Shown here: in pieces, positions 1 through 39,884 of the stretch
How positions within the stretch are numbered: the stretch's first letter is position 1
Layout: each line of letters opens with the position of its first letter
NCBI RefSeq assembly: GCF_000768675.1
Contig: NZ_AVPI01000015.1
Span: 1 to 39,884, forward strand
Length of the DNA stretch: 39,884 nt
Origin: Knoellia flava TL1
GTDB lineage: Bacteria > Actinomycetota > Actinomycetes > Actinomycetales > Dermatophilaceae
Direction: 5' to 3'
Notes under the pieces: model-generated
What the model was told of the DNA's origin: nothing
Database searches by the model: none
What the model saw: only the letters and a program-made list of their open reading frames with translations
Position numbers and translations under genes: made by a program

Positions 1-145
1 AGCTGTTCAGCACCGGGACAGACACATCCGCCGAGACCGCGGCGGCAGCTTGGTGACTTGGACTGAACGCCACAGCCAAGATCAGGACGGACAGCATGCT
101 TAGCACACGGCTTGCGATGGCTCGTGCGTGAGCAACCCGACGCAT
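1..145 (-). CDS. Secreted protein, N-terminal part only (cut by window edge)
   Basis: Reading leftward from an ATG at 145 there are 48 open codons to the window edge. The translation starts MRRVAHARAIASRVL, continues with a hydrophobic stretch (about residues 15-28, LSMLSVLILAVAF) and reaches an Ala-rich AAAAVSA around residues 33-39, which is a classical Sec signal peptide with a likely cleavage site near residue 39. A GGGGAG ribosome binding site lies about 6 bases upstream of the ATG. The mature protein is outside the window, so no function can be given. The signal peptide and the RBS together make this a real gene start and not chance coding. Confidence 0.7.
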   Translation of the reverse strand, partial: MRRVAHARAIASRVLSMLSVLILAVAFSPSHQAAAAVSADVSVPVLNS

Positions 146-315
146 AGGACTCCCCGAAGAAAATCAACTTGGCATACACCGCCGATCCGGGGTGCCGAGT
201 TCGCATCCTAAGCGTGCCGAGATAGGGCGCACACAGAGTTCGCCCTTTCGAGGCGAAATACATCCCCTAGGAGCCGTTACACGAGGTCCGCCCACTCCTA
301 TCGATGCTGATTGAC
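146..315. other. Gap between the partial secreted gene and phoD
   Basis: No gene is seen here. It must hold the promoter of the leftward secreted-protein gene and the 3' end of phoD. A small hairpin, TTCGCC (239-244) with GGCGAA (252-257), could end phoD transcription but has no clear T-run. A GGCATAC heptamer is at 171. Confidence 0.4.
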
Positions 316-2151
316 CTAGCCGCCTCTCGGACGGTCCGAGCGCGGGCCGACGGGACCGGACGCCGGGGTGGCCCGGCGGCTGCCGGCTAGCGTCTGGAAG
401 CTGCGGGCATAGGTCGGCACGACCGAGGAGTCGGTGCGCGGGTCGGGCCGCGCGCTCGTCGGCACCGGCGTGTGGTGGTAGTCGGCCTGGACCCGCTCGG
501 GGGTGACGTCGATGACGGCGTAGCCGTGGCTGATCCCGTCGATGTAGCGCAGCCACGGGTTGAGCTGCTGCGCGGCGCCGATGGCCTGGCGGGTGGCGCC
601 GACGACGACCTCCGGCGGCTGGCCGGCGAGCTGCGCCGTGCCGGCGAGGACCTCGACGAAGCCATCGCTCGTCACGCTCGGGCAGACGAACTCGACGCCG
701 GCCGAGGTGTAGCTCGGGCTGCCCGGGGTCGCCGCGACGGGCAGGTCGCCGACGAACGACGCGTGGATGTCGCCGGTGAGGACGACGACGTCCCCGGAGT
801 CCGCGCTCGGCTGGGCGGCCGCGTGGGTGAGGAGGTTGGTGCGGTCGGCGGTGTAGCCGTCCCACTGGTCGGCGTTGACGAAGGTGAGGCCGGGGGCGCC
901 GAGTGCCGCGCCGGGATAGAGGACGGGCGTGACCATGACCTGGTTGCCGAGGAGGTGCCAGCGGCGGTCGGCCTCGAGGCCGTCCTTGATCCACTCGAGC
1001 TGCTCGGGCTCGGGCAGGTGGCGGCCGGGGTGCGCGATGGCGCCGTCGATGGCGGGGTTGAGGCCGACCGGCACGAAGCCGTCGAACGGCACGCCCGGCA
1101 CGGTCACCTGGAGGCTGCGGTTCTGCCGCGTCTCGACGATGGAGAGGTCGCCGAGGTCGCCGAACGTGAAGCGCCGGAAGAAGCGGGTGCCCCGGTGCGG
1201 CGTCGACTGCGACTGGTCGGGCAGGCGGAAGGGCATCCACTCGAGGTAGGCCTGCATCGCCTGCTCCCGGCGCGCGAGGTAGTCGCCCTCGGAGCCCTGG
1301 TGGTTGCCGGCGCCCGCGGCCCACGCGTTGTTGGCGACCTCGTGGTCGTCGAAGATCGTGATCCACGGGTGCTGGCGGTGTGCCGCCTGGAGGTCGGGGT
1401 CGGCCTTGTGGAGGGCGTGGCGCAGCCGGTAGCCGGTGAGGTCGATGGTCTCGGTCTCGGGCTGGCTGTCGCGCACGCCGGCGAGCGAGGCGGGGCCGTA
1501 ACGGTCGGCGCCGTTGCCGTACTCGTAGATGTAGTCGCCGACGTGGAGCACGAAGTCGAGGTCGTCGCGCTCCGCGAGAGCCCTGTATGCCGTGAAGTAG
1601 CCGCCCGTGTAGTTGCTGCAGCTCACGAGTGCGAGACGGAGGGCGTGGGTCTCGCCGGGGACGTCGCCCGCGGTCTGGGTGCGGCCGGTCGCGGAGAACT
1701 CGCCGAGGCTCTGGAAGCGGTAGTAGTAGCGCGTGTAGGGGTCGAGCCCCGTGACGTCGACCTTGACGGTGTGGTCGGTGTCGGGACTCGTCATGACGGT
1801 GCCGTGCTTGACGACCCTCGTGAAGCGGGTGTCGCGGGCGACCTGCCAGCGCACCGGGATCGGGGCTCCGAGGCCGCTTCCCGGGGTGGCCACCGGGTCG
1901 TCCTTGTGTCTCGTGGGCGGGGTGGCGCGGGTCCAGATGACGACCGCGTCGGCGGTCGGGTCGCCGCTCGCGACGCCATAGCCGAAGATGCCCTTGCTCG
2001 CCGGGGCGGCCGCGGCCACCGGGTCGAACGCGCGGGGCAGGGCGAGGGCGGCGCTGGCGGCCGCGACGCCCTTGAGGAGGCTGCGGCGGTCGAGCGCTGC
2101 ACTGGTCAGCGGGGTCGCGTTCGCCGGGGTGTCGGCCGAGGGGTGCGTCAT
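316..2151 (-). CDS. phoD: Alkaline phosphatase D (PhoD), Tat-exported
   Basis: 611 residues. The N-terminus carries a twin-arginine signal (DRRSLLKG, residues 21-28, then an Ala/Leu hydrophobic segment), followed by the PhoD N-terminal fibronectin-like domain (GYGVASGDPTADAVVIWTR) and the phosphatase domain. Visible metal-site motifs include HVGDYIYEYG, FDDHEVANNAW and a late GDIHASFVGD, which match the Ca/Fe site of PhoD enzymes. It should release phosphate from phosphodiesters and monoesters outside the membrane during phosphate starvation. Length is slightly above the usual 500-560 because of internal loops. It stands downstream of the topoisomerase gene on the same strand with a 154-bp gap, so it probably has its own promoter. 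I saw no clear PhoP box. Confidence 0.93.
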   Translation of the reverse strand: MTHPSADTPANATPLTSAALDRRSLLKGVAAASAALALPRAFDPVAAAAPASKGIFGYGVASGDPTADAVVIWTRATPPTRHKDDPVATPGSGLGAPIPVRWQVARDTRFTRVVKHGTVMTSPDTDHTVKVDVTGLDPYTRYYYRFQSLGEFSATGRTQTAGDVPGETHALRLALVSCSNYTGGYFTAYRALAERDDLDFVLHVGDYIYEYGNGADRYGPASLAGVRDSQPETETIDLTGYRLRHALHKADPDLQAAHRQHPWITIFDDHEVANNAWAAGAGNHQGSEGDYLARREQAMQAYLEWMPFRLPDQSQSTPHRGTRFFRRFTFGDLGDLSIVETRQNRSLQVTVPGVPFDGFVPVGLNPAIDGAIAHPGRHLPEPEQLEWIKDGLEADRRWHLLGNQVMVTPVLYPGAALGAPGLTFVNADQWDGYTADRTNLLTHAAAQPSADSGDVVVLTGDIHASFVGDLPVAATPGSPSYTSAGVEFVCPSVTSDGFVEVLAGTAQLAGQPPEVVVGATRQAIGAAQQLNPWLRYIDGISHGYAVIDVTPERVQADYHHTPVPTSARPDPRTDSSVVPTYARSFQTLAGSRRATPASGPVGPRSDRPRGG

Positions 2152-2305
2152 TCTCCGGAGGCTAGACCTGACATCGGTGGCGCGAAGGCGGTTTGGCGCG
2201 GAACCACTCCGTCGGGTCGTGCCTGCTCACTCGCGCTGCTTGCGTCCGCCACTGTGGTGGCTATGCCGTCAATGTGCCGGACGTTGCGTATGCCGGGCCG
2301 GCACC

Positions 2306-3310
2306 TCAGCTGAGGAGGGCTCGGACCTCCTTCTCGATGCCCTCCTGGCGCTTCATCGGGTCGCGGCCGGTCGACTTGGGGACGGTGATCGTCTCGCCGT
2401 TGTCGTAGAGCTCGAGGACCCGCGGGTCGACGTAGGAGTTCTTGGCGATCGTCGGGGTGTTGCCGAGGTAGTCGGCGACCTGCTCGACGGCCTCCTTGAT
2501 CGCCCGCTTCCTCGACGCCTGGGTGTCGCCCGGCTCCGGCGACGCGGCGAGCGCGGCGGCGGCATGGACGGTGGCATGCCAGGTGCGGAAGTCCTTGGCG
2601 GTCACCTCGGCGTCGAAGATCTCGTGGAGGTAGGCGTTGACGTCGGACGCCTCGAGGTCGCGCCAGCCGTCGTCGGTCCGGTAGGCGAGGACGCGCTGGG
2701 ACTTCGACCGGCGCCGTCGCATCTCGCCGATGGCCGTTGCGACGTCCTTGTCGCGGATCGTCACCTGCTGGTCGATGCCGCTCTTGCCCTGGAACTCGAA
2801 CCGCAGCCCTTCGCCGACCTTGCGGACGTGCTGGCGCTCAAGGGTCGTGAGCCCGAAAGAGCCGTTGGCGTCGGTGTAGACGTCGTTGCCGATGCGGAAG
2901 TAGCCGAGGTCGAGCAGACGCACGGCGACAGCGGCGGCCCGCTCCAACGGCATACCCTTCTTGCGCAGATCCCGGGTCACCCGGCGGCGGGCGCCGGGAA
3001 GCTGGGCGGCCGCCTCGAGGATGCGGTCGAACTTGAGCTGGTCTCGCTTGACGCGCCACTCCGGGTGGTAGAGGTACTGCCGCCGTCCGGCGTCGTCGGT
3101 GCCGACAGCCTGGAGGTGGCCGTTGGCGACCGGGCAGATCCACACGTCCTCCCACGCGGGCGGGATGGCGAGGGAGCGGATGCGCTCGACCTCGTCCGCC
3201 GGGAGGCGCTTGCCCGAGTCGTCGAGGTAGGTGAAGCCCTTGCCCGCGCGGCGGCGCGTCCAACCGCGGTCCGAGGGCGAGGTGGTGCGCAGTCGCGTCA
3301 TGCGGGCCAT
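2306..3310 (-). CDS. DNA topoisomerase IB (poxvirus-like)
   Basis: 334 residues, the usual size for bacterial type IB topoisomerases. It relaxes supercoils by nicking one strand through a 3'-phosphotyrosyl link. The N-terminal domain (about 15-95, ending in QYLYHPEWR) is followed by the catalytic domain, with FQGKSG (lysine-loop region), KDFRTWHAT (second catalytic Arg), and GNTPTIAKNSYVDPRV. There Tyr293 is the nucleophile, and Asn284 stands where poxvirus enzymes have His, a swap known in bacterial members. It lies alone on the minus strand between a small membrane protein and phoD. The ATG at 3310 has only a weak ribosome site; Met4 (3301) is a possible alternative start. Confidence 0.93.
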   Translation of the reverse strand: MARMTRLRTTSPSDRGWTRRRAGKGFTYLDDSGKRLPADEVERIRSLAIPPAWEDVWICPVANGHLQAVGTDDAGRRQYLYHPEWRVKRDQLKFDRILEAAAQLPGARRRVTRDLRKKGMPLERAAAVAVRLLDLGYFRIGNDVYTDANGSFGLTTLERQHVRKVGEGLRFEFQGKSGIDQQVTIRDKDVATAIGEMRRRRSKSQRVLAYRTDDGWRDLEASDVNAYLHEIFDAEVTAKDFRTWHATVHAAAALAASPEPGDTQASRKRAIKEAVEQVADYLGNTPTIAKNSYVDPRVLELYDNGETITVPKSTGRDPMKRQEGIEKEVRALLS

Positions 3311-6547: not shown

Positions 6548-7504
6548 TCAGGGAGTGAGCCCGGTCGCGGACGCGACCCACTGCCACATCCGTCGCCGCT
6601 CGTCCGAGGTCGGCGAGTTGCGCCCGAAGAAGGAGGTCGACCGCTCCCGCCTGTCCATCCACAGCCCGCCACCACGAGGCCGCGGCGACGCAGCGACCAG
6701 CCACGTCGACGTGTCGGCGCCCTCGTCGGCGTCGCGCAGGATCGGCCCCATGACCTTGTCGAACGTCGGCAGCGACTCGGTGACGCCGGGCGTCGCGGCC
6801 CAGCCGGGGTGCATGACGTAGACCGCGATCCCCGCCGCGGCCCACCGCACCGTGAGCACCGGCAGCAGCTCGACCTGGGTGCGCTTGCTCCGGGCATAGG
6901 CCGTGGCCGGGGCGTAGTCACCGCGCTCGTAGTCAGGGTCGTCGACGGGCAGCGCCTGCGCATACATGCCACCCGACGTCACCAGCACGACGCGCGCATC
7001 GTGACCCTCGAGCTTGGGCAGGAGCAGGTCGGTGAGCAGCACCGGCCCGAGGACGTGGATCGACATCGACAGCTCGTGACCCTGCGGCGATTCGGTGCGC
7101 TCGGGCGGCATGGCCCCGGCGTTGTGGACGATGGCGTCGATGGGTGGCGCGTCCGCGAGCATCGCCTCGGCACAGGCGCGCACGCTGTCGAGGTCGCCGA
7201 GGTCGCACACCCAGGTCGTCGACGGCCCGGTCAGCTCACGCGCCACCTTCTCGGCCTTGTCGGCGTTGCGCACGACGAGGTGCACGTGCGCCCCGAGGTC
7301 GCTCAACTGGTGCGCGGTGGCGGTGCCGAGCCCCGAGGTAGCACCCGTGACGACGACGTGCTTGCCCACGAGCGAACCCGGGCGCGGGTCGGCCGGCCAC
7401 GACGGGAGGCGACGGCGCACGGCATACCCGATCTTCGAGAATCCGGGCACGACGGTCCGGTCGAGCGCCGTGTCGAGGGCCCCGGAGAGCGCTGCCAGCA
7501 CCAT
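6548..7504 (-). CDS. Short-chain dehydrogenase/reductase (SDR)
   Basis: 318 residues from the ATG at 7504, whose bases overlap the stop of the upstream copper-storage gene (TGATG), giving translational coupling. The Rossmann motif TGATSGLG is at 53-60, then NAGAMPPE, and a YARSK active-site motif (Tyr-x3-Lys) after VTSGGMYAQ. An N-terminal stretch (FSKIGYAVRRRLP) resembles the retinol-dehydrogenase/WW-oxidoreductase-like group of SDRs. Substrate unknown; NAD(P)H use is inferred from the fold. The open frame extends upstream to 8116, but that part overlaps the copper-storage gene in another frame and is not real. Confidence 0.85.
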   Translation of the reverse strand: MVLAALSGALDTALDRTVVPGFSKIGYAVRRRLPSWPADPRPGSLVGKHVVVTGATSGLGTATAHQLSDLGAHVHLVVRNADKAEKVARELTGPSTTWVCDLGDLDSVRACAEAMLADAPPIDAIVHNAGAMPPERTESPQGHELSMSIHVLGPVLLTDLLLPKLEGHDARVVLVTSGGMYAQALPVDDPDYERGDYAPATAYARSKRTQVELLPVLTVRWAAAGIAVYVMHPGWAATPGVTESLPTFDKVMGPILRDADEGADTSTWLVAASPRPRGGGLWMDRRERSTSFFGRNSPTSDERRRMWQWVASATGLTP

Positions 7505-8470: not shown

Positions 8471-8564
8471 CCGTATGCCGTCCGCTCGCGTGTGCCTGCC
8501 GCGCCCGTATGCCGGCCGGGCACCTCGCGCGCGAGTCCCGCGAAGGTGGGCGGACGGCATACGG
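8471..8564. repeat. Inverted repeats built on CGGCATAC after the SRPBCC gene
   Basis: CCGTATGCCGTCCGC (8471-8485) and GCGGACGGCATACGG (8550-8564) are perfect complements over 15 bp. A third copy, CCCGTATGCC at 8504-8513, also pairs with GGCATACGGG at 8557-8566, so two alternative stems share one arm. The structure lies in the gap between two rightward genes and may work as a terminator. All three arms contain the octamer that recurs through the core part of the window. Confidence 0.75.
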
Positions 8565-25350: not shown

Positions 25351-25352
25351 CA

Positions 25353-29380: not shown

Positions 29381-29383
29381 TGA

Positions 29384-30022: not shown

Positions 30023-30031
30023 CCAACACTC

Positions 30032-30046: not shown

Positions 30047-30052
30047 TGCCTG

Positions 30053-30067
30053 CTTGAAAGTTTCAAG
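30053..30067. promoter_or_regulatory. Operator-like palindrome 2 (perfect)
   Basis: CTTGAAAGTTTCAAG is a perfect 15-base palindrome around the central G. It shares the CTTGA/TCAAG arms with the first site and lies between the two divergent genes, a good candidate binding site of the HxlR regulator. Confidence 0.75.
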
Positions 30068-30092
30068 CATCATTCTCACACCAAGGAGAGCC

Positions 30093-30479
30093 ATGCCCGC
30101 CACCCTGTCCTCTGCTGCCCCGCAGGTCCTCAAGGACTACTACCGGATCCTCGAGTCCGGCTCCGACCACTACGAGGACGGGGCCACCCTGCGGCCCCTG
30201 CTGAGCGACCATCTCGACTTCACCGGGCCCCTGGCCGGCCACCGCCCCGATGCGACTGAGGGCTTCCTGCGAGGCGTTTCAGGCTTCATCGCGACGGTCG
30301 GGCAGATCGAGATCATCCACGACGTGCACGGCCCCACCGGCTCGGCCGTGCTGTACACGGCGACCATGCCCGGCGGGCCCATGACCTTTGCCGAGTTCTT
30401 CACCTTCGACGGCGACCTCATCACGTCCCTGAACCTGCACTACAACGGCCCCGAGTACATCGAGAAGGGCGGCCGATGA
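30093..30479 (+). CDS. SnoaL-like (NTF2-fold) protein (passenger)
   Basis: 128 residues from the ATG at 30093 with AAGGAGAG just upstream. The NTF2/SnoaL fold is shown by VLKDYYRILESGSDHYEDGATLRPLLSDHLDFTGPLAGH, an alpha-beta start with a ligand pocket, and FFTFDGDLITSLNLHYN at the end. Such proteins are cyclases, isomerases or binding proteins; here the substrate is unknown. It overlaps the TfoX-like gene as ATGA and is divergent from the HxlR gene, so the three form a regulated passenger cassette. Confidence 0.85.
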   Translation: MPATLSSAAPQVLKDYYRILESGSDHYEDGATLRPLLSDHLDFTGPLAGHRPDATEGFLRGVSGFIATVGQIEIIHDVHGPTGSAVLYTATMPGGPMTFAEFFTFDGDLITSLNLHYNGPEYIEKGGR

Positions 30480-30808
30480 CGGCCCAGCAGAGCCTCGTTG
30501 AACGCGTTCGCCACGCGCTGCGGGACCGTAGCCCCCGCGAGGTACCGATGTTCGGGGGCGTGTCCTTCATGGTGGAGGGCCGCATGGTCGTCGCCGCGCG
30601 CCGCGAAGGGGCGCTCCTGCTGCGCATCAACCCCAGCGCGGCGGCAGAACTGCTCGCCCGCCCGGGCGCCCGCCCCGCGCTCATGGGGGCAGACCGCCCC
30701 ATGGGCGACGGGTGGATCAGCGTCGAACCGGCCGCGCTCGAAGGGACCGGACTCGACAGCTGGCTCGCGCCCGCGCTGTCCTTCCACGCAGCGCAGGGCA
30801 CCAAGTAG
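30476..30808 (+). CDS. TfoX N-terminal-domain protein (passenger)
   Basis: 110 residues, matching the TfoX/Sxy N-terminal domain (SLVERVRHALRDRSPREVPMFGGVSFMVEGRMVVAARREGALLLRINP ... WISVEPAALEGTGLDSWLAPALSF). Stand-alone domains of this kind are frequent in actinobacteria and have no proven link to competence there. Translated with the SnoaL-like gene. The gene ends just before a strong hairpin that separates it from the transposase. Confidence 0.87.
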   Translation: MTAQQSLVERVRHALRDRSPREVPMFGGVSFMVEGRMVVAARREGALLLRINPSAAAELLARPGARPALMGADRPMGDGWISVEPAALEGTGLDSWLAPALSFHAAQGTK

Positions 30809-30820
30809 AACGTCTCCCAC

Positions 30821-30850
30821 GGTGGCCGGTCGCTGACGCGACCGGCCACC
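30821..30850 (+). terminator. Terminator hairpin inside the element
   Basis: GGTGGCCGGTCGC (30821-30833) and GCGACCGGCCACC (30838-30850) form a perfect 13-bp stem with the loop TGAC. It ends the SnoaL-TfoX transcript and shields the transposase from read-through. Confidence 0.85.
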
Positions 30851-30870
30851 GACCCATGTCAGGAGGACCT

Positions 30871-31857
30871 TTGAGCCATCCCAACGCCGCACTGACCCCG
30901 CGCTATCGCCTGAAAGTCGCTCGCCTCGTGGTCGAGGACGGGTGGCCTATCAGTGAGGTCGCCGCCCGATTTCAGGTCTCCTGGCCGACCGTGAAGCGGT
31001 GGGTCGACCGTTACCTGGCCGGCGAGCCCATGCAGGACCGATCCTCGCGCCCGAGGACGTCGCCCAACAAGACGTCGAAGTCGGTGACAAAGCGCTGCGT
31101 GAGCCTGCGAATGCGGTTGCGAGAAGGGCCGGTTCAGCTCGCCGCTCGACTCGACATCGCACCGTCCACGGTGCATCGCATTCTCACGACGGCACGCCTG
31201 AACCGGCTGTCATACGTCGACCGGGCCACCGGTGAGCCGATCCGCCGGTACGAGCACCCCCACCCCGGTTCCTTGGTGCACGTGGACGTGAAGAAGCTCG
31301 GGAACATCCCCGACGGCGGCGGCTGGCGCTACGTCGGCCGCCGCCAAGGAGAACGGAACCGGGCTGCGACCCCTGGGAAGCCGAAGAGCAAGTGGCACAA
31401 CCCCAAGCTCGGGTACGCGTTCGTGCACACAGTCATCGACGACCACTCCCGCGTCGCGTACACCGAGGTCCACGACGACGAGACCGCCGTCACCGCCGTC
31501 GGCGTCCTGCACCGCGCTGTCGAGTGGTTCGCCGAACGGGGCGTCACCATCCAACGGGTGTTGTCGGACAACGGCGGCGCGTACCGGTCACACCTGTGGC
31601 GGGACACCTGCGAAGCGCTGTCGATCACGCCGAAGCGGACCCGCCCGTACCGCCCGCAGACCAACGGCAAGGTTGAGAGATTTCACCGCACCATGGCCGA
31701 CGGGTGGGCCTACGCCCGCTGCTACACCAGCGAGCAAGAACGACGTGACGCCCTTCCCGACTGGCTGCACCAGTACAACCACCACCGCCCCCACACCGCG
31801 TGCGGTAACCAGCCGCCCTTCTCACGATTGATCAACGTCCCCGGTCAGTACAGCTAG
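30871..31857 (+). CDS. IS481-family transposase (DDE)
   Basis: 328 residues from a TTG at 30871 with AGGAGG five bases upstream; the family typically begins SHPNAALTPRxRLxLARLVVDDGWP, as here. An in-frame ATG at 30856 is less likely. An N-terminal helix-turn-helix region (EVAARFQVSWPTVKRWVDRYLAG) is followed by the rve-type catalytic core: Asp in VHVDVKKLG, Asp in RVLSDNGGAYRS, and Glu in TNGKVERFHRTM (DDE). The last codons read GQYS and a TAG whose bases belong to the target duplication and not to the element. The gene looks intact, so the element may still be active. Confidence 0.95.
   Translation: MSHPNAALTPRYRLKVARLVVEDGWPISEVAARFQVSWPTVKRWVDRYLAGEPMQDRSSRPRTSPNKTSKSVTKRCVSLRMRLREGPVQLAARLDIAPSTVHRILTTARLNRLSYVDRATGEPIRRYEHPHPGSLVHVDVKKLGNIPDGGGWRYVGRRQGERNRAATPGKPKSKWHNPKLGYAFVHTVIDDHSRVAYTEVHDDETAVTAVGVLHRAVEWFAERGVTIQRVLSDNGGAYRSHLWRDTCEALSITPKRTRPYRPQTNGKVERFHRTMADGWAYARCYTSEQERRDALPDWLHQYNHHRPHTACGNQPPFSRLINVPGQYS
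31831..31852. repeat. Right terminal inverted repeat of the IS481-type element
   Basis: 22 bases ending GGTCAGTACA, the exact complement of 29359-29380. It overlaps the last codons of the transposase gene. Confidence 0.9.
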
Positions 31858-31858
31858 C
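31853..31858. repeat. Target-site duplication GCTAGC, right
   Basis: Second copy of GCTAGC. It supplies the last two bases of the final Ser codon and the TAG stop of the transposase. Confidence 0.9.
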
Positions 31859-32073
31859 CCACCGAGATGACCACTTGCCGCAAGCACGAAGGTCTGTGCG
31901 ACCTCGGCGACCAGCCTGAACCCCGTCTCCCCCTGACGATCCACGATCGCCGGGTCAGGCGACGGCAACGCGGTGGCGTCTTGAACCGCGGCGGAGCCTT
32001 CGGCGGGAATCCAGTGGTAGGGGTCTGCGATCTCGAGGAACACAGCCCGGCCGAAACCGAACAGGTCCCCCAA
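31853..32073 (-). pseudogene. 5' part of the gene interrupted by the IS481-type element
   Basis: It translates as GDLFGFGRAVFLEIADPYHWIPAEG and on to AEVAQTFVLAASGHLGGLA, which continues in frame at 29352. The start is uncertain: TTG 32073 is the first usable codon in the visible frame, while the frame stays open upstream to near 32200 without ATG or GTG. Helical, no signal peptide. See the 3' fragment for the joined product. Confidence 0.7.
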
Positions 32074-32325
32074 CTCGACAAGACGCGCCGGAACCTGCCC
32101 CGGCCGTGCGGATGATGAGGAAGATCGGCCTGCATAGTTGAGACCGTATCGCCCGGCAGTGGCGGCCCCTGAAAGGTCACTGACTCGGGCGGGGAGGCAT
32201 CAACAGGTCTTACCTACCGTTGACCCGATGGGTCTCAAGCGTGCGTCACTGCGCCGCGTGCCGGCCGAGGATAGGAGGGTTGGTCGGCTGGCTCGCTGGC
32301 GAGGGCGGTCAGATGGTCGCCAACG
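32074..32325. other. Gap with island repeat copy 2
   Basis: 252 bp holding the upstream region of the interrupted gene, the repeat at 32241-32266 and the 3' end of the GIY-YIG gene. No further gene is supported. Confidence 0.4.
32241..32266 (+). repeat. Island direct repeat, copy 2
   Basis: Begins GTGCGTCACTGCGCCGCGTG and continues with CCGGCC. The first 21 bases differ from copy 3 at one position. Same orientation as the other copies. Confidence 0.75.
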
Positions 32326-32838
32326 CTACGTGAGCCGCTGTTGCAAAGCCTCGAATGTGTGAACCTCGAGCGCTCTCGTTGCAACCTGCAGCCACTCGAT
32401 CTTGCCCGCAGCGAACTGGGTCTCTCGAACGTTGCCACTAGGCACTATGGCGCGCTGCAGGATCGCCTCCATCTCGTAGATGGCTAAGTTCGAGCTACCC
32501 GTGATGTCGCCTGCCTGTTCTACGGTGCGTACGCCCATTCGATCGGGATCGCCCGACGCCGCATCGAATGAGAACCAAGAGAAGCGCGTCCAAAGGCCGG
32601 CGTGATCGTCATCTAGATGATCGTAGAGACGCCCGCCAATGCCATTCGCGCCTTCTGACAACCCTACGTAGTAGGGGCCCACGTCGTTGTACAGCACATA
32701 CACCCCACGTGACCTCCGAAAGTTGGCGATCTGCAACGTCCCGCGATTGAGTCCCTGTCGTCCGAGCAGTTGCCAGCCGTGGCTGCCCCAATCGACTAGG
32801 TCGCGTTCCCAAAACCGGCCGTACGCCTGGATCAGCAT
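32326..32838 (-). CDS. GIY-YIG nuclease-domain protein
   Basis: 170 residues. GVYVLY (45-50) and YYVGL (56-60) form the GIY-YIG pair, followed by the Arg in GIGGRLYDHL (Arg70) and a later Glu in AIYEMEAILQRA that fits the catalytic glutamate. An N-terminal stretch (FWERDLVDWGSHGWQLLG) is of unknown fold. Single-domain GIY-YIG proteins cut DNA with one metal ion. Here no partner gene is coupled. It is a lone gene flanked on both sides by the island repeat. Ribosome site before the ATG is weak (GAAGG too close). Confidence 0.8.
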   Translation of the reverse strand: MLIQAYGRFWERDLVDWGSHGWQLLGRQGLNRGTLQIANFRRSRGVYVLYNDVGPYYVGLSEGANGIGGRLYDHLDDDHAGLWTRFSWFSFDAASGDPDRMGVRTVEQAGDITGSSNLAIYEMEAILQRAIVPSGNVRETQFAAGKIEWLQVATRALEVHTFEALQQRLT

Positions 32839-32903
32839 CCCTTCATGCTGTCTCAGGCGGGTAGTGCCGCCCGCCGCGACACGCCCTGTTCATCCGATCC
32901 ACA

Positions 32904-32929
32904 GTGCGTCACTCCGCCGCGTGCGGCCC
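32904..32929 (+). repeat. Island direct repeat, copy 3
   Basis: Begins GTGCGTCACTCCGCCGCGTG and continues with CGGCCC. It lies between the divergent starts of the GIY-YIG and PD-(D/E)XK genes. Confidence 0.75.
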
Positions 32930-33017
32930 GTGCCTCGTCGGCCGCTTGATGCTTTGGCAAGCCGACGTCGGTGGTCCCTGACACACTGCTGGAACGCGGG
33001 ATGGAAGGGAGAGGCCA

Positions 33018-33956
33018 GTGCTGCCAGACGACCCAGCAGACTTGATCCTTGGCAAGACGTACGGCTCGGAGGGAACCGCTCAGCGCTATCTGTGCGCATT
33101 GTTGATCAGTGGCTCTTCGTACGGGTATCACAAGTCTTGGGCACTAACGGAGCGAGGTGCTCGGTTTGTCGCTGGCCTGTACTCGCGGAAGTTCGGTAAC
33201 CCACCACCCGGCCTGCCGCAGTTCTGGAATGAGATGAATCTGCGGGCCGTAGGGGCCCACGACGAGCAAGCGGTCGACTATGGGTTCATCTGGCCGGAGG
33301 TCCATTTCTTGGTCGAGTTGAAGACCCTAGGCAGTTCGCATCGCCCGGGCCAACTCACCGAGTACCTCGTGAGAGCACGCCATCACAACCCCGGCCCAAG
33401 CATTGACCTGCTGTACCTCACCCAGCCGATGGCGGCTGCAATCCCCGATGACATGCCGGAGCGTTGCCGCTTCGCGCACCTCACTTGGCTCGAAGCTATG
33501 GAAGTTGCCAACGAGGTATGGGCCGACTCAACGGATCCGAGAGAGGTACGCTGCCTGGCGCTGCTGAGGGAACACTTGGACCGAGAAGGGGCGTTGGCTG
33601 CAGGGCCGACCCCGACGAAGAGGACCACGGCAGGTGAGGCCGCAACGGCCAATGACTTGCCCGAGGAGTGGGAGCAAGTTCTTCATGGGGCCGTCCTAGC
33701 AGCCGCCCAGGCAGCCGCGGGCAGAAGGACCGCCGTCGATGTTCCGGAAGCGCTGGTGACCGATAGCGCCATTGCTGCCCGTCTGCGCCAAGTCAGGGGG
33801 CTGCTTGAGGACCGCATCGACGGAGACGCTCGACTCGCTGGAGTGAAGGTCTGGGAGTGGACGTCGCGAACTGGTGGACGCGCCTACACCGAGGTCGGCG
33901 AGCGCGTCGGAGTAGAGCTGCGGCTCACGCCACCGAGTACCCGCACTCCTGTCTGA
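33018..33956 (+). CDS. PD-(D/E)XK nuclease-like protein
   Basis: 312 residues from a GTG at 33018 with a GGAAGGGAGAGG purine run upstream. A restriction-nuclease core is visible: Asp87 (AVDYGFIW), Glu100-Leu-Lys102 (HFLVELKTLG) and Gln112 in GQLTEYL, as in many PD-(D/E)XK proteins. The C-terminal half (about 205-312) is unlike any fold I know. Cytosolic, no signal. No methyltransferase is nearby, so a classical restriction-modification role is not supported; an independent nuclease that recognises invading DNA is a guess. Flanked by repeat copies 3 and 4. Confidence 0.72.
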   Translation: MLPDDPADLILGKTYGSEGTAQRYLCALLISGSSYGYHKSWALTERGARFVAGLYSRKFGNPPPGLPQFWNEMNLRAVGAHDEQAVDYGFIWPEVHFLVELKTLGSSHRPGQLTEYLVRARHHNPGPSIDLLYLTQPMAAAIPDDMPERCRFAHLTWLEAMEVANEVWADSTDPREVRCLALLREHLDREGALAAGPTPTKRTTAGEAATANDLPEEWEQVLHGAVLAAAQAAAGRRTAVDVPEALVTDSAIAARLRQVRGLLEDRIDGDARLAGVKVWEWTSRTGGRAYTEVGERVGVELRLTPPSTRTPV

Positions 33957-33983
33957 GGCCAACAACTTGGGCGCCGACCAAAG

Positions 33984-34009
33984 GTGCGTCACACCGCCGC
34001 GAGCCGGCC
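33984..34009 (+). repeat. Island direct repeat, copy 4
   Basis: Begins GTGCGTCACACCGCCGCGAG and continues with CCGGCC. It starts 27 bp after the stop of the PD-(D/E)XK gene. Confidence 0.75.
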
Positions 34010-34123
34010 CTGTTCGATCGTCCAGTGCGGCCGATGCGTGCCGGGTGTCATTTATGTGAGAGCTGTTCTTGCGATCCGCCATCTCGACGTTCAACAGACG
34101 TTCACCCCGAAGGTGCGGCGTCT

Positions 34124-35395
34124 ATGGTCGCAACCGTGGTGGACACCGAGGTGGTCGTGGTGGGTGGAGGGCTCGCGGGCCTCCGCTGCGGATGGCGGCT
34201 TGCGGAGGCGGGCCGCTCGGTCGTCGTCGTCGAGGCGGCGCAGGCAGTCGGCGGCCGCGAGCGCACCGACACGGTAGATGGTTTCCTCCTTGACCGAGGG
34301 TTCCAGGTGCTCAACCCGGCGTACCCGGCGGTTCGCCGGTGGGTGGACCTCGATGCCCTTGAGCTGCGGCCCTTCGGTGCCGGAGTGCTCGTCCGCCGCG
34401 AGCGCGGCCTCACCGAGCTGTCGCATCCGCTGCGGAACCCGGCGGGTCTGTTGGCGACGTTGCGTAGCGGACTGCTCACCCCTCGGGGTGTGGCCGCCAT
34501 GGTGCGCTGGGTGGGGCCGGCGCTGGCCGCCCCGCGCCGTGTGGTCGACGGCCCGGATCGGTCGTTGAGCGAGGGCCTGGACCGCGTGGGGCTGGCTGGC
34601 CCGCTGCGCGATGAGGTCATCGAGCCCTTCCTCGCTGGGGTGCTCGCCGAGGACCGGGGAGAGACCTCGGAGGCCTTTGCGAAGCTGCTTGTGCGGATGT
34701 TCGCGCTGGGTGTGCCTGGCTTGCCGGCACGCGGCATCCGGGCGCTGCCCGAGCAGTTGGCTGCCGCGGCCGTGCGGGCCGGGGCCGACCTCCGGCTGGG
34801 CGAGGCGGTCGTCGAGGTGAGCGGCGGGGTGTCCAGCGCGGTCCTCCGACTGGCCGGTGGCGAGCGTTTGGCGGCTCGCGCGGCCGTGGTGGCGGTCGGC
34901 CCGGAGGCCGTGGGCGGGCTGCTCGAGGTGCCGCCGCTGCGGACCCGGGGCCTGCAGACGTGGTGGTTCGCGGCGGGCGAGCCCCCGACGGCATCGACCA
35001 TGATTGCGGTCGACGGCCGGCGCCGAGGGCCGGTCGTCAACACTGCGGTGATGACGAATTGCGCTCCGGAGCTGGCGCCGCCGGGTCGGCACCTCGTGCA
35101 GGCCACCTGCCTCCTGCCGGCCTCGGCAGACGCGGCCGCGACAGAGGCGCAGGTGCGTCGGCAGGTGGGCGAGATCTACGGCGTCGACACCTCGGGGTGG
35201 CAGCTGGTGCACCGCCACGACATCCGGCACGCACTGCCGGCCCAACCGCCCCCGCTGCGCACGACGTCGCCGGCACGGGTCTCGCCGTCGGTCTACGTGT
35301 GCGGCGACCACTGTGACACCGCGTCGATCCAGGGGGCGCTCGTCTCCGGACACCGCGTCGCCGGTGCTGTGCTTGCGGACCTCGCGTCGGCATGA
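34124..35395 (+). CDS. FAD-dependent oxidoreductase (amine oxidase/phytoene-desaturase-like)
   Basis: 423 residues from the ATG at 34124. The dinucleotide motif VVVVGGGLAGLRCGWRLAEAGRSVVVVEA is at the N-terminus with VGGRERT following, and a C-terminal FAD motif is seen in VYVCGDHCDTASIQGALVSGHRVAGAVL. This layout is that of flavin amine oxidases and protoporphyrinogen/carotenoid oxidoreductases. Substrate unknown. Its GC content is high like the left half of the window, unlike its PHP-ATPase neighbour, so it may be an older resident or come from a similar genome. It stands alone between copies 4 and 5 of the repeat. Confidence 0.87.
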   Translation: MVATVVDTEVVVVGGGLAGLRCGWRLAEAGRSVVVVEAAQAVGGRERTDTVDGFLLDRGFQVLNPAYPAVRRWVDLDALELRPFGAGVLVRRERGLTELSHPLRNPAGLLATLRSGLLTPRGVAAMVRWVGPALAAPRRVVDGPDRSLSEGLDRVGLAGPLRDEVIEPFLAGVLAEDRGETSEAFAKLLVRMFALGVPGLPARGIRALPEQLAAAAVRAGADLRLGEAVVEVSGGVSSAVLRLAGGERLAARAAVVAVGPEAVGGLLEVPPLRTRGLQTWWFAAGEPPTASTMIAVDGRRRGPVVNTAVMTNCAPELAPPGRHLVQATCLLPASADAAATEAQVRRQVGEIYGVDTSGWQLVHRHDIRHALPAQPPPLRTTSPARVSPSVYVCGDHCDTASIQGALVSGHRVAGAVLADLASA

Positions 35396-35804
35396 TGGCG
35401 CGCCGCCGCGTTGGCCGCCAGCGGTGCGGGAAATCGCCGCGTGCCGGCCTCTGGATGTGGGTATCGCCTGCGAGGTTTTCCCATGGACTGGGGATGTCGT
35501 CGAGGCGTCGGTCCGACCGCGCCGCGCCGTTCGCGCCGTAGCGCTTGTTGCGATAGTTGCGTTCGCGGCCGTACCGGCGGTCCGATAACCGGTCGTCGAG
35601 TGGTGGATTGGACAAGGCAGACTAGGTGACTTTTCGCCTCGAACAACTTCTTCGCCCTGTCGCGCCGTCTGTGACACCAACGGGCTGAGCCTCGCTCGCA
35701 AGGTCTTTCCTTGGCGAGGTCGAGCTAGCCCACTCCGCCGCAAGTCGGTCCCGCTCCGTCGATTGTGAGGTGGGTGCACCCGCAGAGTGGCCGCGCAGGG
35801 CAGA
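35396..35804. other. 409-bp gap, possible gene remnant and weak repeat copy
   Basis: No convincing gene. On the minus strand from about 35615 to 35400 the reading NPPLDDRLSDRRYGRERNY and LDDIPSPWENLAG looks protein-like, but the frame then runs into the antisense of the FAD gene, so it is at best a fragment of a lost gene. The weak island-repeat copy is at 35725-35751. Confidence 0.35.
35725..35751 (+). repeat. Island direct repeat, degenerate copy 5
   Basis: Shares the 11-base core CACTCCGCCGC and about 18 of 27 positions with the consensus. Same orientation and a comparable place, between the FAD gene and the second GIY-YIG gene. Confidence 0.45.
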
Positions 35805-36626
35805 TCAGTTGATATTGAGGCCGAAGGTGCGAGTCAGCAGCTTGTTCTTCCAGTAGGACTCGATCTGCTCGATCGTGGCGTCGGGGGTGTTCTCGTCGAC
35901 TACCTCAAGCACCGACACCTGGTATCGACGTCGGCCATCGGATGCGGATCTCCGGAGGCCGACGTTTCCGCCATGCCCGTCGGTCGCGTACTGGACCCAG
36001 CGGCCATACAGGCTGTCTGCGCCCTTGGCCGATCCGACGTACTGCTGTCCGGAATCTAGGTCGACCAGAAGGTATACACCTTTGACGCTGCGAAGGACCT
36101 GCTGCCAGCCGTTTGGGAGTGTAGGGATGTCGTTGATGGGCCTCACGAATTCACGGAAGCCGGGGAAACGAGGTTCATACTGCTCGGCGATCTCGACTAC
36201 TGGCTTGGGTTGCTTCACTGCGCGCTGTACCCAGCTCCTCGTCCCAGCGCCCCAGTCGATGACGACTCGGTCGATGTAGTCGACCAAGAGGTCCGTGAGG
36301 GTCAGGTCGTAGCGGAAGTGCCCAGTGATATCGAGGCTGAGAAGCTCGTCAGTGCTACCAAGCGGGCAGAGATCGACCGAGTTGACGCGGTAGATCCCGA
36401 CGAAGACCGTCTTCTGCGCCTCAGTGACGACGAACTCAGCGAGTAAGCCGCCGATCGGAAACCTGTCCTTGCTCTGCACGCTCTGGTAGCTCTCGAACCT
36501 TGAACGGTCGTTCCGCCAGGCTTCGTACATCCGACCGCGCCCCAGCCTGCCGTCCTGATGCCTGACCAAGCGCACCTCATTGCTGTCGATCGCTTCAAGA
36601 GACAGTAGATCGTTGAACGTCAGCAA
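35805..36626 (-). CDS. GIY-YIG nuclease with unknown N-terminal domain
   Basis: 273 residues from a TTG at 36626 (GGAGAT upstream). The C-terminal 90 residues are a full GIY-YIG domain: KGVYLLVD (182-189), QQYVGSAKG (194-202), Arg209 in YGRW, a His in DGHGGN, and Glu256 in IEQIESYWKNKLLTR, ending GLNIN as in many family members. The first 180 residues (VRLVRHQDGRLGRGRMYEAWRN; FPIGGLLAEFVVTEAQKTVFVGIYRV) form a separate beta-rich domain that I do not recognise; it may bind the target. Not similar to the GIY-YIG protein at 32326. Confidence 0.82.
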   Translation of the reverse strand: MLTFNDLLSLEAIDSNEVRLVRHQDGRLGRGRMYEAWRNDRSRFESYQSVQSKDRFPIGGLLAEFVVTEAQKTVFVGIYRVNSVDLCPLGSTDELLSLDITGHFRYDLTLTDLLVDYIDRVVIDWGAGTRSWVQRAVKQPKPVVEIAEQYEPRFPGFREFVRPINDIPTLPNGWQQVLRSVKGVYLLVDLDSGQQYVGSAKGADSLYGRWVQYATDGHGGNVGLRRSASDGRRRYQVSVLEVVDENTPDATIEQIESYWKNKLLTRTFGLNIN

Positions 36627-36742
36627 GGTTCATCTCCAAAGTCGCTACCCCTGCGACAGCCAACCACGGGGCTCTCCAAGTTCCGTCAGCCATATCTACG
36701 TCAACCAGCCGCGTGTCCAAACGGGTTACACGAGCTGTGGCG

Positions 36743-38143
36743 TCAGCCGACCTCTTCTATAACGCTTGCGGCCTGGCGGTCGGAACCGTCGCCTTGATCC
36801 GGGCCGTCCTGTGACGAGTAGTCGGTGGACACCAAGCTGGACGGCTGGATCGGCTCGCGCTCCTCCGAAACGGTGGGGCTCTCCGGGCGGAGCTTGGGCG
36901 GGGTCGCGGACCAGGTCTTCAAGTCGCCAAGGACGTTTGCGTAGAAGGCGTCGACTGCAGTGAGAACAGAGTCGATGAAAGCCCCACGGCCGCGGCCACG
37001 CTTGGTCCCCAACGGGCTGGTCAGCGCCACTCGGAACGATCGGATCTCCTTGGCGGGATCGCTCACAAGCAGGCCCGGGTTTTCGCGCACCGCCCGCAGC
37101 AACTCAGCGCTGGACGAACCGCGAGAGTGCGCGGTCATGCACTCGATGCGGGTGGTCTCGGGGGCGTTCTTCAACTGACGGATGAGCCAGTTGACCCGGG
37201 TGGTGGGTCGCCCTTCGCGTGGGGCATCGATGTCTACGTGACAGGTGATCTGGCCGGCGCGGAGGTCAGCGGTGATGACCAGATGACCCGCGGTGTCCGG
37301 GACCCGGATCGTGCCGGACAGCTGCCCGGTGCCTGCCAACTGCTGGGTCAGCGCGGACGCTCTCAGTGAAGGGTCGGCCAGCTCCTTGCGAGACAGGACG
37401 GGGACGACCTCGGTGCCCAGACGACGTCCCAGGCTCAGGCTGGTGAATCGCAGGAGAGCATCGAAGCGGGACACCACGGTTGGGAGGTTCTTGTCGGTTG
37501 CTCGCAGCGTGGCGGTGGCGACAGCGTCGCGGACCCCGGTCCAGGACTCGCCCATGTCATCGAACTCGAGCGCTCCACTTCGGGTGTGCTCGAGGTAGCG
37601 GATGAGCTCCCCCAGGATCCACGCCTGGTCCGGGTCCGCGACGCCACGGAACTCCTTCTGCATGACCGCCTCGGCGAGCACCTGCGACCAGGAAAGATGG
37701 CGCAGCTCGACCTTCCGGAGCTTGCGCTTGTCCACCTTGGTCGGGTGCTGTCCGGCGATGGCGGGAATCTCGTTGCTGATCGTCAGGAGTGCGTCGAATC
37801 CCTGCTCACGAGCCACGTCGAGGTAGTTCTCGAGCTGCTCGGTCGTGAGCTCATTGCTTCCGGTCTTGACCTCTACCAGTGCGGTCCATGTCTTAGTGCC
37901 TCGCGAAACCCTGATGAGACCGTCCGGGAAGACCTTCTTCTCGCCGAGCATGAAGGGCACTTCGATGTAGCACTCCACCGCTCCGGCGGGCGCCCCCAGC
38001 GGCTTCAGAAGAGCGCGATTGAACTCCTTGACCGCGCCAAGAACAGCCAACAGTGCCGATGTCGCTCGACGCTCTTGCTCCTCCGCCCCGTTGATGCCTG
38101 ACGTTGGGATGAGGCGCGCTTCGTGCCAGGACTGCTCGGCCAT
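36743..38143 (-). CDS. PD-(D/E)XK nuclease-like protein, larger
   Basis: 466 residues. The N-terminal domain has the nuclease core: Glu61 (YIEVPF), Asp74 (FPDGLIRV), Glu91-Val-Lys93 (ALVEVKTG) and Gln103 in TTEQLENYLDVAREQGFDALLTISN, typical of PD-(D/E)XK. The central part (about 200-330) is of mixed fold, including a strand-rich stretch SGTIRVPDTAGHLVITADLRAGQITCHVDIDAP. The C-terminal 70 residues are Ser/Pro/Asp-rich and probably disordered. It is the last gene of the island on this side and is divergent from the NmrA-like gene. Function in DNA defence or repair is inferred from the fold and company. Confidence 0.75.
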   Translation of the reverse strand: MAEQSWHEARLIPTSGINGAEEQERRATSALLAVLGAVKEFNRALLKPLGAPAGAVECYIEVPFMLGEKKVFPDGLIRVSRGTKTWTALVEVKTGSNELTTEQLENYLDVAREQGFDALLTISNEIPAIAGQHPTKVDKRKLRKVELRHLSWSQVLAEAVMQKEFRGVADPDQAWILGELIRYLEHTRSGALEFDDMGESWTGVRDAVATATLRATDKNLPTVVSRFDALLRFTSLSLGRRLGTEVVPVLSRKELADPSLRASALTQQLAGTGQLSGTIRVPDTAGHLVITADLRAGQITCHVDIDAPREGRPTTRVNWLIRQLKNAPETTRIECMTAHSRGSSSAELLRAVRENPGLLVSDPAKEIRSFRVALTSPLGTKRGRGRGAFIDSVLTAVDAFYANVLGDLKTWSATPPKLRPESPTVSEEREPIQPSSLVSTDYSSQDGPDQGDGSDRQAASVIEEVG

Positions 38144-38394
38144 GTGGTGATGCCCCCGGTTGGTGCGAGTGTGATTTGCGCACCGTACCGACTCTTACCG
38201 TGAATGACTTGCACCTTTGCCGTAACGGCTACACATCGCAATGAGACTCGACAGGGTTCGATGCGCCCTCGGCCGATCGGCGACCCGGGCAATGGTTGGT
38301 GATGGGCCCGCTGGAGTCGGGTGCAAGTGAGGCTCAAGAACCCGCCGTCACTGTCGTGGACAACAGCTCACACCGTCCACGACAGGAGTCACCG
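38144..38394. other. Divergent gap at the right edge of the island
   Basis: 251 bp. The left part (about 38165-38250) is less GC-rich and could hold promoters. The right part carries the inverted repeat at 38351-38385. No gene is seen. Confidence 0.4.
38351..38385. promoter_or_regulatory. Large palindrome overlapping the ribosome site of the NmrA-like gene
   Basis: CTGTCGTGGAC (38351-38361) and GTCCACGACAG (38375-38385) are perfect 11-bp complements with a 13-base spacer. The right arm ends inside the CAGGAG ribosome site of the gene starting at 38395. It could be an operator for an unseen repressor or a hairpin that hides the ribosome site. Confidence 0.7.
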
Positions 38395-39369
38395 ATGTCT
38401 GTCCCCGCCCACCCCACGATCCTCGTTCTCGGCTCGACTGGCCTCATGGGCCGCGAGGTCGTTCGGTCGCTCAACGGGCGCGGCGTCAGCCCGCGAGTGC
38501 TCGTTCGCGACCCGGGCCGTCTCCGCCCCACGGACCGCGTCGAGATCCACCGAGGCGACCTCCGCGACCCCGCCTCCCTCCGCGAAGCCATGCGAGGCGT
38601 CGACGCCGTCTTCCACATCTCCCCGCACGAGGCCGACGAGGTCGAGCTGACCCGCACCGCCCTCGACGCCGTCGAGGCCGAAGGCGCCCGCCTCGTCTTC
38701 TCCGGAATCCACATCGACGCCTCCAACCGCCTCGCCAAGTGGGTCATGCGCACCGTCTACGGTCGACTCCTCCCGCGCTACCGCGGCAAGATCGCCATCG
38801 GCCATCTCGTCGAGACCTCGAACACCAACCCGGTCATGCTCGGCGTCGGCAATTTCATGCAGTGCGACGAGGTCCTCCTCGACGTCATCCGCGACGGCCA
38901 GTTCGTCCTCCCGACCCACCCGAAGGGCCTCAACCGCGTCGACCTGCGCGACCTCGGAGACATCGCCGCCAACGTCCTGCTCGACCCGACCGTCCCCTCC
39001 GGCGCCTACCCCGTCTGCGGCCCACGCTCCCTCACCGGCCAAGAGTGCGCCGCCACGTGGTCCGACGCCCTCGGCACACCTGTCGAGTACGTCGGCGATG
39101 ACGACGCGGCCATCGACGCCGCCCTCACCGCCCACCTCACCGCCTACCGCCTCGAGGACTGGAAGTCGTCCTTCAAGGCCCTGCGCGGCTTCGCCGTGAA
39201 GACCAAGCAGTCCGAGCTCGACGCCACGACGAGACTTCTCGGTCACCCACCGACCGACTTCACCGAGTTCGTCCGCCGCATCGTTGACGAGCACGGACTC
39301 GCGCCGACGACGCACACGGGAGCGGACGGCATACCGGCCGCTTCGCAGACGGAAGGGGCACTGCGATGA
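38395..39369 (+). CDS. NmrA-like NAD(P)-binding oxidoreductase
   Basis: 324 residues from the ATG at 38395 (CAGGAG upstream). A Rossmann start ILVLGSTGLMGREVVRSLNGRGV with Gly-x2-Gly-x2-Gly, then VEIHRGDLRDPASLREAMRGVDAVFHISP, matches the atypical SDR group that includes NmrA sensors and quinone reductases such as QorB. No Tyr-x3-Lys pair is obvious, so a redox-sensing or non-classical role is possible. The stop overlaps the next start as ATGA, coupling it to a hemerythrin protein, which suggests oxygen or nitric-oxide stress. Confidence 0.85.
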   Translation: MSVPAHPTILVLGSTGLMGREVVRSLNGRGVSPRVLVRDPGRLRPTDRVEIHRGDLRDPASLREAMRGVDAVFHISPHEADEVELTRTALDAVEAEGARLVFSGIHIDASNRLAKWVMRTVYGRLLPRYRGKIAIGHLVETSNTNPVMLGVGNFMQCDEVLLDVIRDGQFVLPTHPKGLNRVDLRDLGDIAANVLLDPTVPSGAYPVCGPRSLTGQECAATWSDALGTPVEYVGDDDAAIDAALTAHLTAYRLEDWKSSFKALRGFAVKTKQSELDATTRLLGHPPTDFTEFVRRIVDEHGLAPTTHTGADGIPAASQTEGALR

Positions 39370-39884
39370 AGCAGCTCGACCTCCCCGGCCAGACGCACGT
39401 CGCCGAGGGCCCGCTCGACCACACCGGCATGTACGTCATGCACCACGCCTTCCGCCGCGACCTCGCGCGGTTCGCTGCAGCCGCGACCGCGACACCGCTC
39501 GGCGACCTGGACACCTGGGCCGCCCTCAGCGCGAGGTGGGACCGGTTCTGCCACGTCCTCCACGAGCACCACCACGCCGAGGACACGCACTACTGGCCCG
39601 TCCTCCACGCAGCCGTCAGCGCTCGCGGCACCGACTCTGACCGCGCGGAGGTCACCGCGATGAGCGACGAGCACGCCGAAATCGACCCCGCCCTCGCCGC
39701 CCTCACCACCGCCTGGCGCGCCATGGCCGACCACCCCTGCGACGACCACCGCCACGCCCTCGAGATCCGCCTCGCCGGCCTGCGCGAGCTCCTCGGCGCC
39801 CACCTCGAGCACGAGGAGACCGTCGTCCTGCCGCTCGTCCAGCGCGTCATGAACGAGGACGAGATGGCCGGCGTCGAGCTCGCG
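39366..39884 (+). CDS. Hemerythrin-like (HHE) domain protein, cut by window edge
   Basis: 173 codons are open to the end of the window. The ATG at 39366 overlaps the stop of the NmrA-like gene. The iron-site histidines and acids of the HHE fold are visible: LDHTGMYVMHHAFRRDL, LHEHHHAEDTHYWPVL, MSDEHAEIDPAL and LLGAHLEHEETVVLPLVQ. Such proteins bind O2 or NO at a di-iron centre. The C-terminus is missing here. Confidence 0.88.
   Translation, partial: MKQLDLPGQTHVAEGPLDHTGMYVMHHAFRRDLARFAAAATATPLGDLDTWAALSARWDRFCHVLHEHHHAEDTHYWPVLHAAVSARGTDSDRAEVTAMSDEHAEIDPALAALTTAWRAMADHPCDDHRHALEIRLAGLRELLGAHLEHEETVVLPLVQRVMNEDEMAGVELA

Follow-up and report, generated by a model that had tools for sequence, protein, structure and literature searches.

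A dispersed octamer in Knoellia flava and its relatives as a candidate recognition word of a DNA-uptake-sequence-like self-marking system

The window analysed here (the whole stretch of 39,884 nucleotides, contig 15 in the 94-contig, 3.56-Mb draft assembly of Knoellia flava TL1) raises the question of why one octamer, CGGCATAC, recurs through most of it and is missing from one long segment. The exact count is 22 copies, 10 on the forward strand and 12 on the reverse strand, as given in the preliminary description of this DNA; 19 of the 22 coordinates listed there were exact, while three were one too high (the true starts are 8555, 14357 and 21575). Fewer than one copy had been expected by chance, and 100 dinucleotide-preserving shuffles of the window likewise gave a mean of 0.49 and a maximum of 3, none reaching 22. 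From comparisons of sequences we consider, with a probability of roughly 0.6, that CGGCATAC is the recognition word of a self-marking system resembling DNA uptake sequences (DUS) in the Knoellia/Intrasporangiaceae group (Dermatophilaceae in GTDB). The copies in the window, and the gap between the last two of them, are as follows.

1585..1592, reverse strand, CGGCATAC copy, exact match
2288..2295, reverse strand, CGGCATAC copy, exact match
2948..2955, forward strand, CGGCATAC copy, exact match
7420..7427, forward strand, CGGCATAC copy, exact match
8473..8480, reverse strand, CGGCATAC copy, exact match
8507..8514, reverse strand, CGGCATAC copy, exact match
8555..8562, forward strand, CGGCATAC copy, exact match
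9993..10000, forward strand, CGGCATAC copy, paired in inverted orientation with that at 10009 at a spacing of 16
10009..10016, reverse strand, CGGCATAC copy, paired in inverted orientation with that at 9993
10798..10805, reverse strand, CGGCATAC copy, exact match
13328..13335, forward strand, CGGCATAC copy, exact match
14357..14364, reverse strand, CGGCATAC copy, exact match
14427..14434, forward strand, CGGCATAC copy, exact match
14506..14513, reverse strand, CGGCATAC copy, exact match
16267..16274, forward strand, CGGCATAC copy, exact match
17235..17242, reverse strand, CGGCATAC copy, exact match
20180..20187, reverse strand, CGGCATAC copy, exact match
21575..21582, forward strand, CGGCATAC copy, exact match
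21813..21820, reverse strand, CGGCATAC copy, exact match
22339..22346, forward strand, CGGCATAC copy, exact match
22862..22869, reverse strand, CGGCATAC copy, last one ahead of the desert
39327..39334, forward strand, CGGCATAC copy, first one past the desert
22870..39326, no strand, octamer desert, mostly of lower GC, carrying defence-like genes plus a fragment of an integrase-core transposase, interpreted as an acquired island

The enrichment is real and larger than the window alone could show. The preliminary description had named a genome-wide count and a Markov model as checks on its claim, and neither count lay near expectation. The source genome (G000, 3,561,699 bp) contains 2541 copies, 1273 forward and 1268 reverse, against 94 (50 and 44) of the reversed word, and the 360 kb of contig 1 contain 263 copies against an order-3 Markov expectation of 1.9 with the sites masked or 12.8 with the sites kept, a 20- to 140-fold over-representation. 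As the hexamer GGCATA occurs 283 times in the same 360 kb, nearly all of its occurrences sit within the octamer. DUS and uptake signal sequences (USS) are recognised by a short, highly over-represented word of about 9-12 nt in hundreds to thousands of copies, and a word of this kind is present here. The probability that the word is an artefact of chance, composition or codon usage is negligible, since the shuffle, reversed-word and Markov controls refute it and the word uses rare codons. Two further motifs were noted in the source genome: ATTGCGCA occurs 7 times in 20 kb (C1, 100-120 kb; 0.06 expected), and TGCGCA is about 2-fold above expectation in contig 1.

The two strands are used evenly, both genome-wide and on contig 1 (131 forward, 132 reverse). 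In G003, a relative assembled as a single contig, 164 sites had one sense and 155 the other after correction for replichore (600 kb sampled, summed by halves, the halves being set by a GC skew that is weak and uneven, mostly positive to ~1.9 Mb and then mostly negative). An even orientation, unlike that of Chi or of the FtsK-orienting polar sequences (KOPS), had been claimed from the window alone and is borne out at both scales. A Chi-like hotspot of a RecBCD-, AddAB- or AdnAB-type enzyme, or a KOPS-like polarity signal, would be in keeping with an octamer that is enriched in core DNA and differs between genera, but the absence of replication strand bias in G003 and the enrichment between genes described next make it very improbable, and the over-representation of CGGCATAC is far above that of Chi.

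Genes were called with a home-made caller trained on Knoellia, not a standard annotator, and it may miss genes in other genomes. On contig 1, 192 sites lie inside called genes, 68 between genes and 3 at gene edges; as in DUS and USS, the word thus occurs in both orientations, in coding and intergenic DNA, and with no replication strand bias. The intragenic sites are read as Tyr-Ala (90), Ala-Tyr (66), Met-Pro (17), Gly-Ile (14) or otherwise (5). All six frames are therefore used, as had been stated, but unevenly, with the four frames outside Tyr-Ala and Ala-Tyr sharing 36 of the 192 sites. Over 560 kb (contigs 1 and 45 and the window), the 481.5 kb of called genes hold 298 sites, those at gene edges counted (0.62/kb), and the remaining 78.4 kb hold 110 (1.40/kb). 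Among spacers of up to 2.5 kb, the density was 3.13/kb between tail-to-tail genes (25 sites in 8.0 kb), 1.78/kb between head-to-head genes and 1.71/kb between codirectional genes. The word accounts for 128 of the 280 TAT codons (~46%) and 21 of the 29 ATA codons (~72%) in the 560 kb, and this concentration of rare codons in the word indicates that selection acts on the DNA, in agreement with the preliminary description. The intergenic sites share a one-sided flank consensus from about -11 to +11, with A at -1 in 65%, G at +8 in 69% and a G-rich upstream side, and the extended context in Knoellia is ~22 bp long, roughly AGGYGRGCGGA-CGGCATAC-GGG. Eleven close inverted pairs were found across the sampled DNA of the source genome, one of them the window pair at 9993/10009.

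The sites are also conserved between species. In the 50.6 kb alignable between the source genome and G003 (81% identity), 31 of 36 alignable source-genome sites were identical in G003, and 31 of 40 alignable G003 sites were identical in the source genome (408 of 444 and 279 of 319 sites, respectively, were unaligned), whereas random octamers were identical in 25% and 16 control octamers in 14 of 60 occurrences. A word of the kind of HIP1 (highly iterated palindrome 1), kept by methylation, restriction or a repair or mutation bias, would share the very high copy number and the lineage-specific spelling. However, CGGCATAC is not its own reverse complement, its flank consensus is one-sided, its positions are conserved between species and it is scarce in mobile DNA; mutation bias should neither spare islands on the same chromosome nor pack the word between tail-to-tail genes. 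Such an origin is decidedly unlikely, and given the conservation, intergenic packing, island scarcity and rare codons, a mutational or compositional cause is insufficient.

No copy was found between 22869 and 39327 of the window, as first reported, where ~11.7 would be expected in 16.5 kb at the density of the genome (Poisson chance ~8e-6). GC drops from ~0.71 to 0.60-0.68 over most of this desert, with one kilobase at 0.73. Ten of its proteins were searched against Pfam and eight against PADLOC, and its features are the following.

22899-38143, island overall, with defence-like genes and a transposase fragment
23245-25128, Schlafen group 3 helicase, profile match
25719-28736, SMC/AAA protein, matching the Ppl and mads_3 models
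31276-31857, integrase-core transposase fragment, profile match, which we take to be of IS3 type
35805-36626, UzuA homologue, full-length profile match

The protein encoded at 36743-37960 shows 89% identity over 386 amino acids to a protein at 697.3-698.5 kb in G003, which lies in a word-poor stretch adjoining conjugation genes. Within 620-800 kb of G003, the largest gap, at 702-744 kb (41.5 kb), encodes a TrwC relaxase/primase together with a TraG coupling protein; it also encodes two integrase-like proteins, of which one scores slightly below the threshold of the Pfam integrase domain. The largest gap in contig 1 of the source genome, at 30.3-49.6 kb, contains a transposase with an integrase core. 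In all three deserts examined (the window island, contig 1 at 30-50 kb and G003 at 702-744 kb) the word is absent or nearly so, in line with the difference between core and acquired DNA that had been proposed, and scarcity in horizontally acquired DNA, likewise expected of DUS and USS, was thus observed. As a whole, the nearly word-free region at ~680-744 kb of G003 C1, with TrwC, TraG and the two integrase-like proteins, looks like an integrative conjugative element (ICE).

All nine genomes examined from the genus of the window carry 1971-3277 copies of CGGCATAC. In the family, the word is abundant (a count of 300 or more that is also 2.4 times that of the reversed word or higher) in 110 of 186 genomes, belonging to 31 of 53 genera; 67 genomes have fewer than 160 copies and nine lie between. 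In the remaining families of the order, the 362 genomes sampled each have 180 copies or fewer. Among individual loci, those of Knoellia remsis (11 in 14.7 kb), Phycicoccus elongatus Lp2 (22 in 22.4 kb) and Humibacillus xanthopallidus (13 in 22.1 kb) carry the word, that of Ornithinimicrobium sp. CNJ-824 has few copies (3 in 13.3 kb), and none was found in the loci of Intrasporangium flavum, Dermacoccus abyssi and an uncultured Phycicoccus sp.

Samples of no more than 20 kb from genera low in CGGCATAC were screened for 8- and 9-mers in excess, and candidates were then counted in whole genomes. The screen found CGGCATCC in G412 and G542, CGGCGTAC in G402 and CCCCCTTCG in G188, and the sites listed for G412, G402 and G188 are dispersed and on both strands. 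CCCCCTTCG occurs 797-1860 times in all 16 genomes of g18 and 1317-1939 times in all three of g15, against at most 80 times in each of the remaining 167 family genomes. For CGGCATCC and CGGCGTAC, a dialect was called at ~500 per Mb or more because both words have a high background. CGGCATCC is the dialect of seven genomes (2099-4480 copies), namely both genomes of g116 (3816 and 3838), the one of g146 (3949) and all four of g121 (2099-4480, alongside 288-1217 CGGCATAC). CGGCGTAC is also that of seven (2111-4185 copies): two of the three of g113 (2366 and 2618; the third has 785), one of g114 (2216), one of four of g3 (2529) and all three of g137 (2111, 4185 and 3903). Left out under this threshold were G009 and G521 for CGGCATCC (1336 and 1210 copies) and G147, G408, G404, G303, G518 and G414 for CGGCGTAC (752-1359 copies). 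CGGCGTAC is raised in G464 of g135 (1463 copies; 16 observed against 7.9 expected in 73 kb), at a density not clearly above that of some genomes of other families. By these thresholds, one word or more is present in 140 of the 186 family genomes (110 + 19 + 7 + 4). Lineage-specific dialects, another property of DUS and USS, are present. The screen was not exhaustive: the samples of 16 further genomes and four named loci yielded no conspicuous word, and CCCCCTTCG in G078 and CGGCGTAC in G410 and G469 were missed by the samples and revealed by whole-genome counts. A 10-kb stretch of G200 has only 2 copies of CCCCCTTCG, where its whole-genome total would predict ~4.

C at positions 1, 4 and 8 and T at position 6 are common to CGGCATAC, CGGCATCC, CGGCGTAC, CGGCATTC and CCCCCTTC, although for CCCCCTTC this could be chance. 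In a tree of CpaF from 20 genomes (midpoint root only, 7 of 17 inner branches open), both CGGCATCC genomes stand beside a CGGCATAC genome (support 100/99), and word-bearing and word-free genomes are paired in g13 and g20. A protein that organises the chromosome or associates with the nucleoid, and that requires many sites scattered over the core, would explain a dispersed word on both strands, selection at the DNA level and scarcity in islands. However, whole genomes switch spelling between related genera, which is hard without a drive; as thousands of sites would have to be re-targeted at each respelling of a genus, neither a nucleoid protein nor an epigenetic mark is easy to sustain, though either is conceivable. 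With the word also densest between tail-to-tail genes and numbering anywhere between 0 and 21 per 20 kb among samples of G003, we regard a nucleoid protein as unlikely.

Some genomes combine spellings. CGTCATAC, CGACATAC and CGCCATAC occur beside CGGCATAC in G011. An 18-kb sample of G438 has CGGCATTC 14 times and CGGCATAC not at all, and its whole genome has 1025 CGGCATAC; on its contig 7, CGGCATTC runs along most of the sample and one patch holds a cluster of 8 CGGCATAC, a mix that may reflect either two dialects brought together by recombination or a chimeric assembly. Positions 1-20000 of G427 C1 contain 13 CGGCATAC and 2 CGGCATCC, whereas the genome contains 361 and 4480, respectively; this 20-kb patch in another dialect, within one 3.7-Mb contig, is perhaps imported DNA.

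The comparison with DUS had already been made in the preliminary description, and the copy number, the use of both strands and of coding and intergenic DNA, the conservation, the island scarcity and the genus dialects all agree with it. In a DUS-like system, a cell-surface DNA-binding protein of the competence machinery would prefer word-bearing DNA, which would enter through ComEC and then recombine. Biased uptake together with selection would spread and keep the word across the core chromosome, DNA moving by other routes, such as islands and conjugative elements, would stay without it, and if the receptor of a lineage altered its specificity, the whole genome would follow to a new spelling, so that a dialect would arise. 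A DUS-like system is the best supported reading because biased uptake supplies the drive for re-spelling thousands of sites. The evidence thus supports a word that works like a DUS and falls short of proof that it is one; CGGCATAC may act in uptake, Tad/Flp pili may serve it, and a pseudopilin or another surface protein may be the receptor.

ComEC, the DNA import channel expected of DUS and USS systems, was present in 38 of 39 relatives and in all 34 further family genomes searched, the copy of the source genome being nearest, among named relatives, to that of Knoellia remsis (73% identity). T2SSE ATPases were present in all 60 genomes searched. Two types of Tad cluster were found, Ssd-TadA-TadB-TadC-Flp-TadE and CpaF-TadB-TadC-Flp-TadE-TadF-TadG, whose gene names are our own assignments from recall and similarity. 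The type IV pilus with a receptor pilin that characterises DUS and USS systems was not indicated by the PilM marker; Tad clusters are present instead. No receptor for the word was found among the genes examined. ComEC of G491, the only one of the 31 g20 genomes with fewer than 160 copies, seemed short but is cut by a contig end, and therefore does not count as evidence. In G457, which also lacks the counted words, comEC is split in C1 into residues 50-289 and 284-817, at 2174-2179 and 2203-2206 kb, some 27.7 kb from each other, a layout that would fit insertion of an element into the gene.

Several observations weigh against a DUS-like system. ComEC and both types of Tad cluster occur with and without the word and were rejected as discriminators, and no gene examined (ComEC, T2SSE, Tad clusters) separates genomes with a word from those without. 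By the thresholds used, 46 of the 186 family genomes have no word at all, yet those checked have ComEC. PilM (PilM_2), a single marker of the type IV pilus, was detected in just 7 of the 186 genomes of the family, the source genome not among them. The Knoellia-trained caller located no Flp, TadE, TadF or TadG gene for the second Tad cluster of the dialect genome G542. The 24 single-mismatch neighbours of CGGCATAC number 210 against ~171 expected in 360 kb, which is close to background and means fewer decayed copies than anticipated; known uptake-word systems are expected to show more. Genes with typical codon usage are poorer in the word (0.32/kb in the top quartile against 0.60-0.79/kb), which was not predicted. 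The same caller did not find Flp, TadE, TadF and TadG of the second cluster in G464, nor all of them in G010 and G062.

According to a 2025 paper, DUS and USS are known only from Neisseriaceae and Pasteurellaceae; the comparisons below refer to the available portions of the sources cited. The DUS of Neisseriaceae is a 10-mer with roughly 900-3300 copies per genome and several lineage-distributed dialects in which some positions are invariant, and five genomes have no obvious word (Frye et al. 2013, PMC3630211). The family described here is similar in copy number, in lineage dialects with fixed positions and in having genomes without a word, and differs in the word itself, in being a high-GC actinobacterial family, in the lack of a PilM found in the genome of the window, and in that its uptake effect and receptor are putative; a further difference is that one of its dialects, CCCCCTTCG, matches the main word at only half of the first eight positions. 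The USS of Pasteurellaceae is a 9-mer in an extended motif of 17 numbered positions, with two dialects and a predicted receptor in the type IV minor pilin PpdA/ComN (PMC12616744); a core word inside a longer motif (~22 bp in Knoellia) and dialects are common to both, and phylum and machinery differ. In Neisseriaceae, ICEs have been detected from the distribution of DUS (PMC7371117), and the conjugation genes of G003 likewise fall in a word gap, one of the three deserts examined. The actinobacterium Micrococcus luteus shows competence dependent on Tad/Flp pili, with ComEA/ComEC and two tad-like clusters (PMC6370729), comparable to the two Tad clusters and ComEC in the family studied here; the available portion of that source mentions no uptake word, and competence of Knoellia is putative.

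A literature search with little coverage of subscription journals or bioRxiv preprints found no such word described in actinobacteria among the top matches listed, and unrelated papers were among the matches listed for the octamer string itself. We lean slightly towards regarding this as the first DUS system known beyond Neisseriaceae and Pasteurellaceae, with its word spelled in four or more ways, probably read by Tad/Flp-pilus competence machinery in place of a classical type IV pilus, and switched more than once as the family evolved. If so, it would be a third, unrelated case, in Gram-positive bacteria and with another type of pilus, which would mean that such marking evolves repeatedly, and it would offer many natural dialect switches for studying how genomes re-spell thousands of sites. 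Natural competence would be predicted in environmental and wastewater bacteria, with a practical handle for transforming them, and the word would be a simple means of spotting acquired DNA in these genomes.

Some minor features were seen alongside. In the first Tad cluster of the source genome (L197, 12219-13597), a 186-amino-acid protein and a 144-amino-acid open reading frame (ORF) lie between TadC and Flp, which by eye we take to be secreted and sortase-like, respectively. Near the second Tad cluster of G542 (L265, 8795-8956), an ORF consists of a tandem repeat of RCQSGTSGFWNNC. Apparent words in G431 and G469 turned out to be local repeats, and that in G410 looks like an array (positions not viewed); these repeats comprise an array in G431 (L169, 5910-6798), a probable array in G410 (L177) and a widely spaced family in G469 (L170, 13830-19636).

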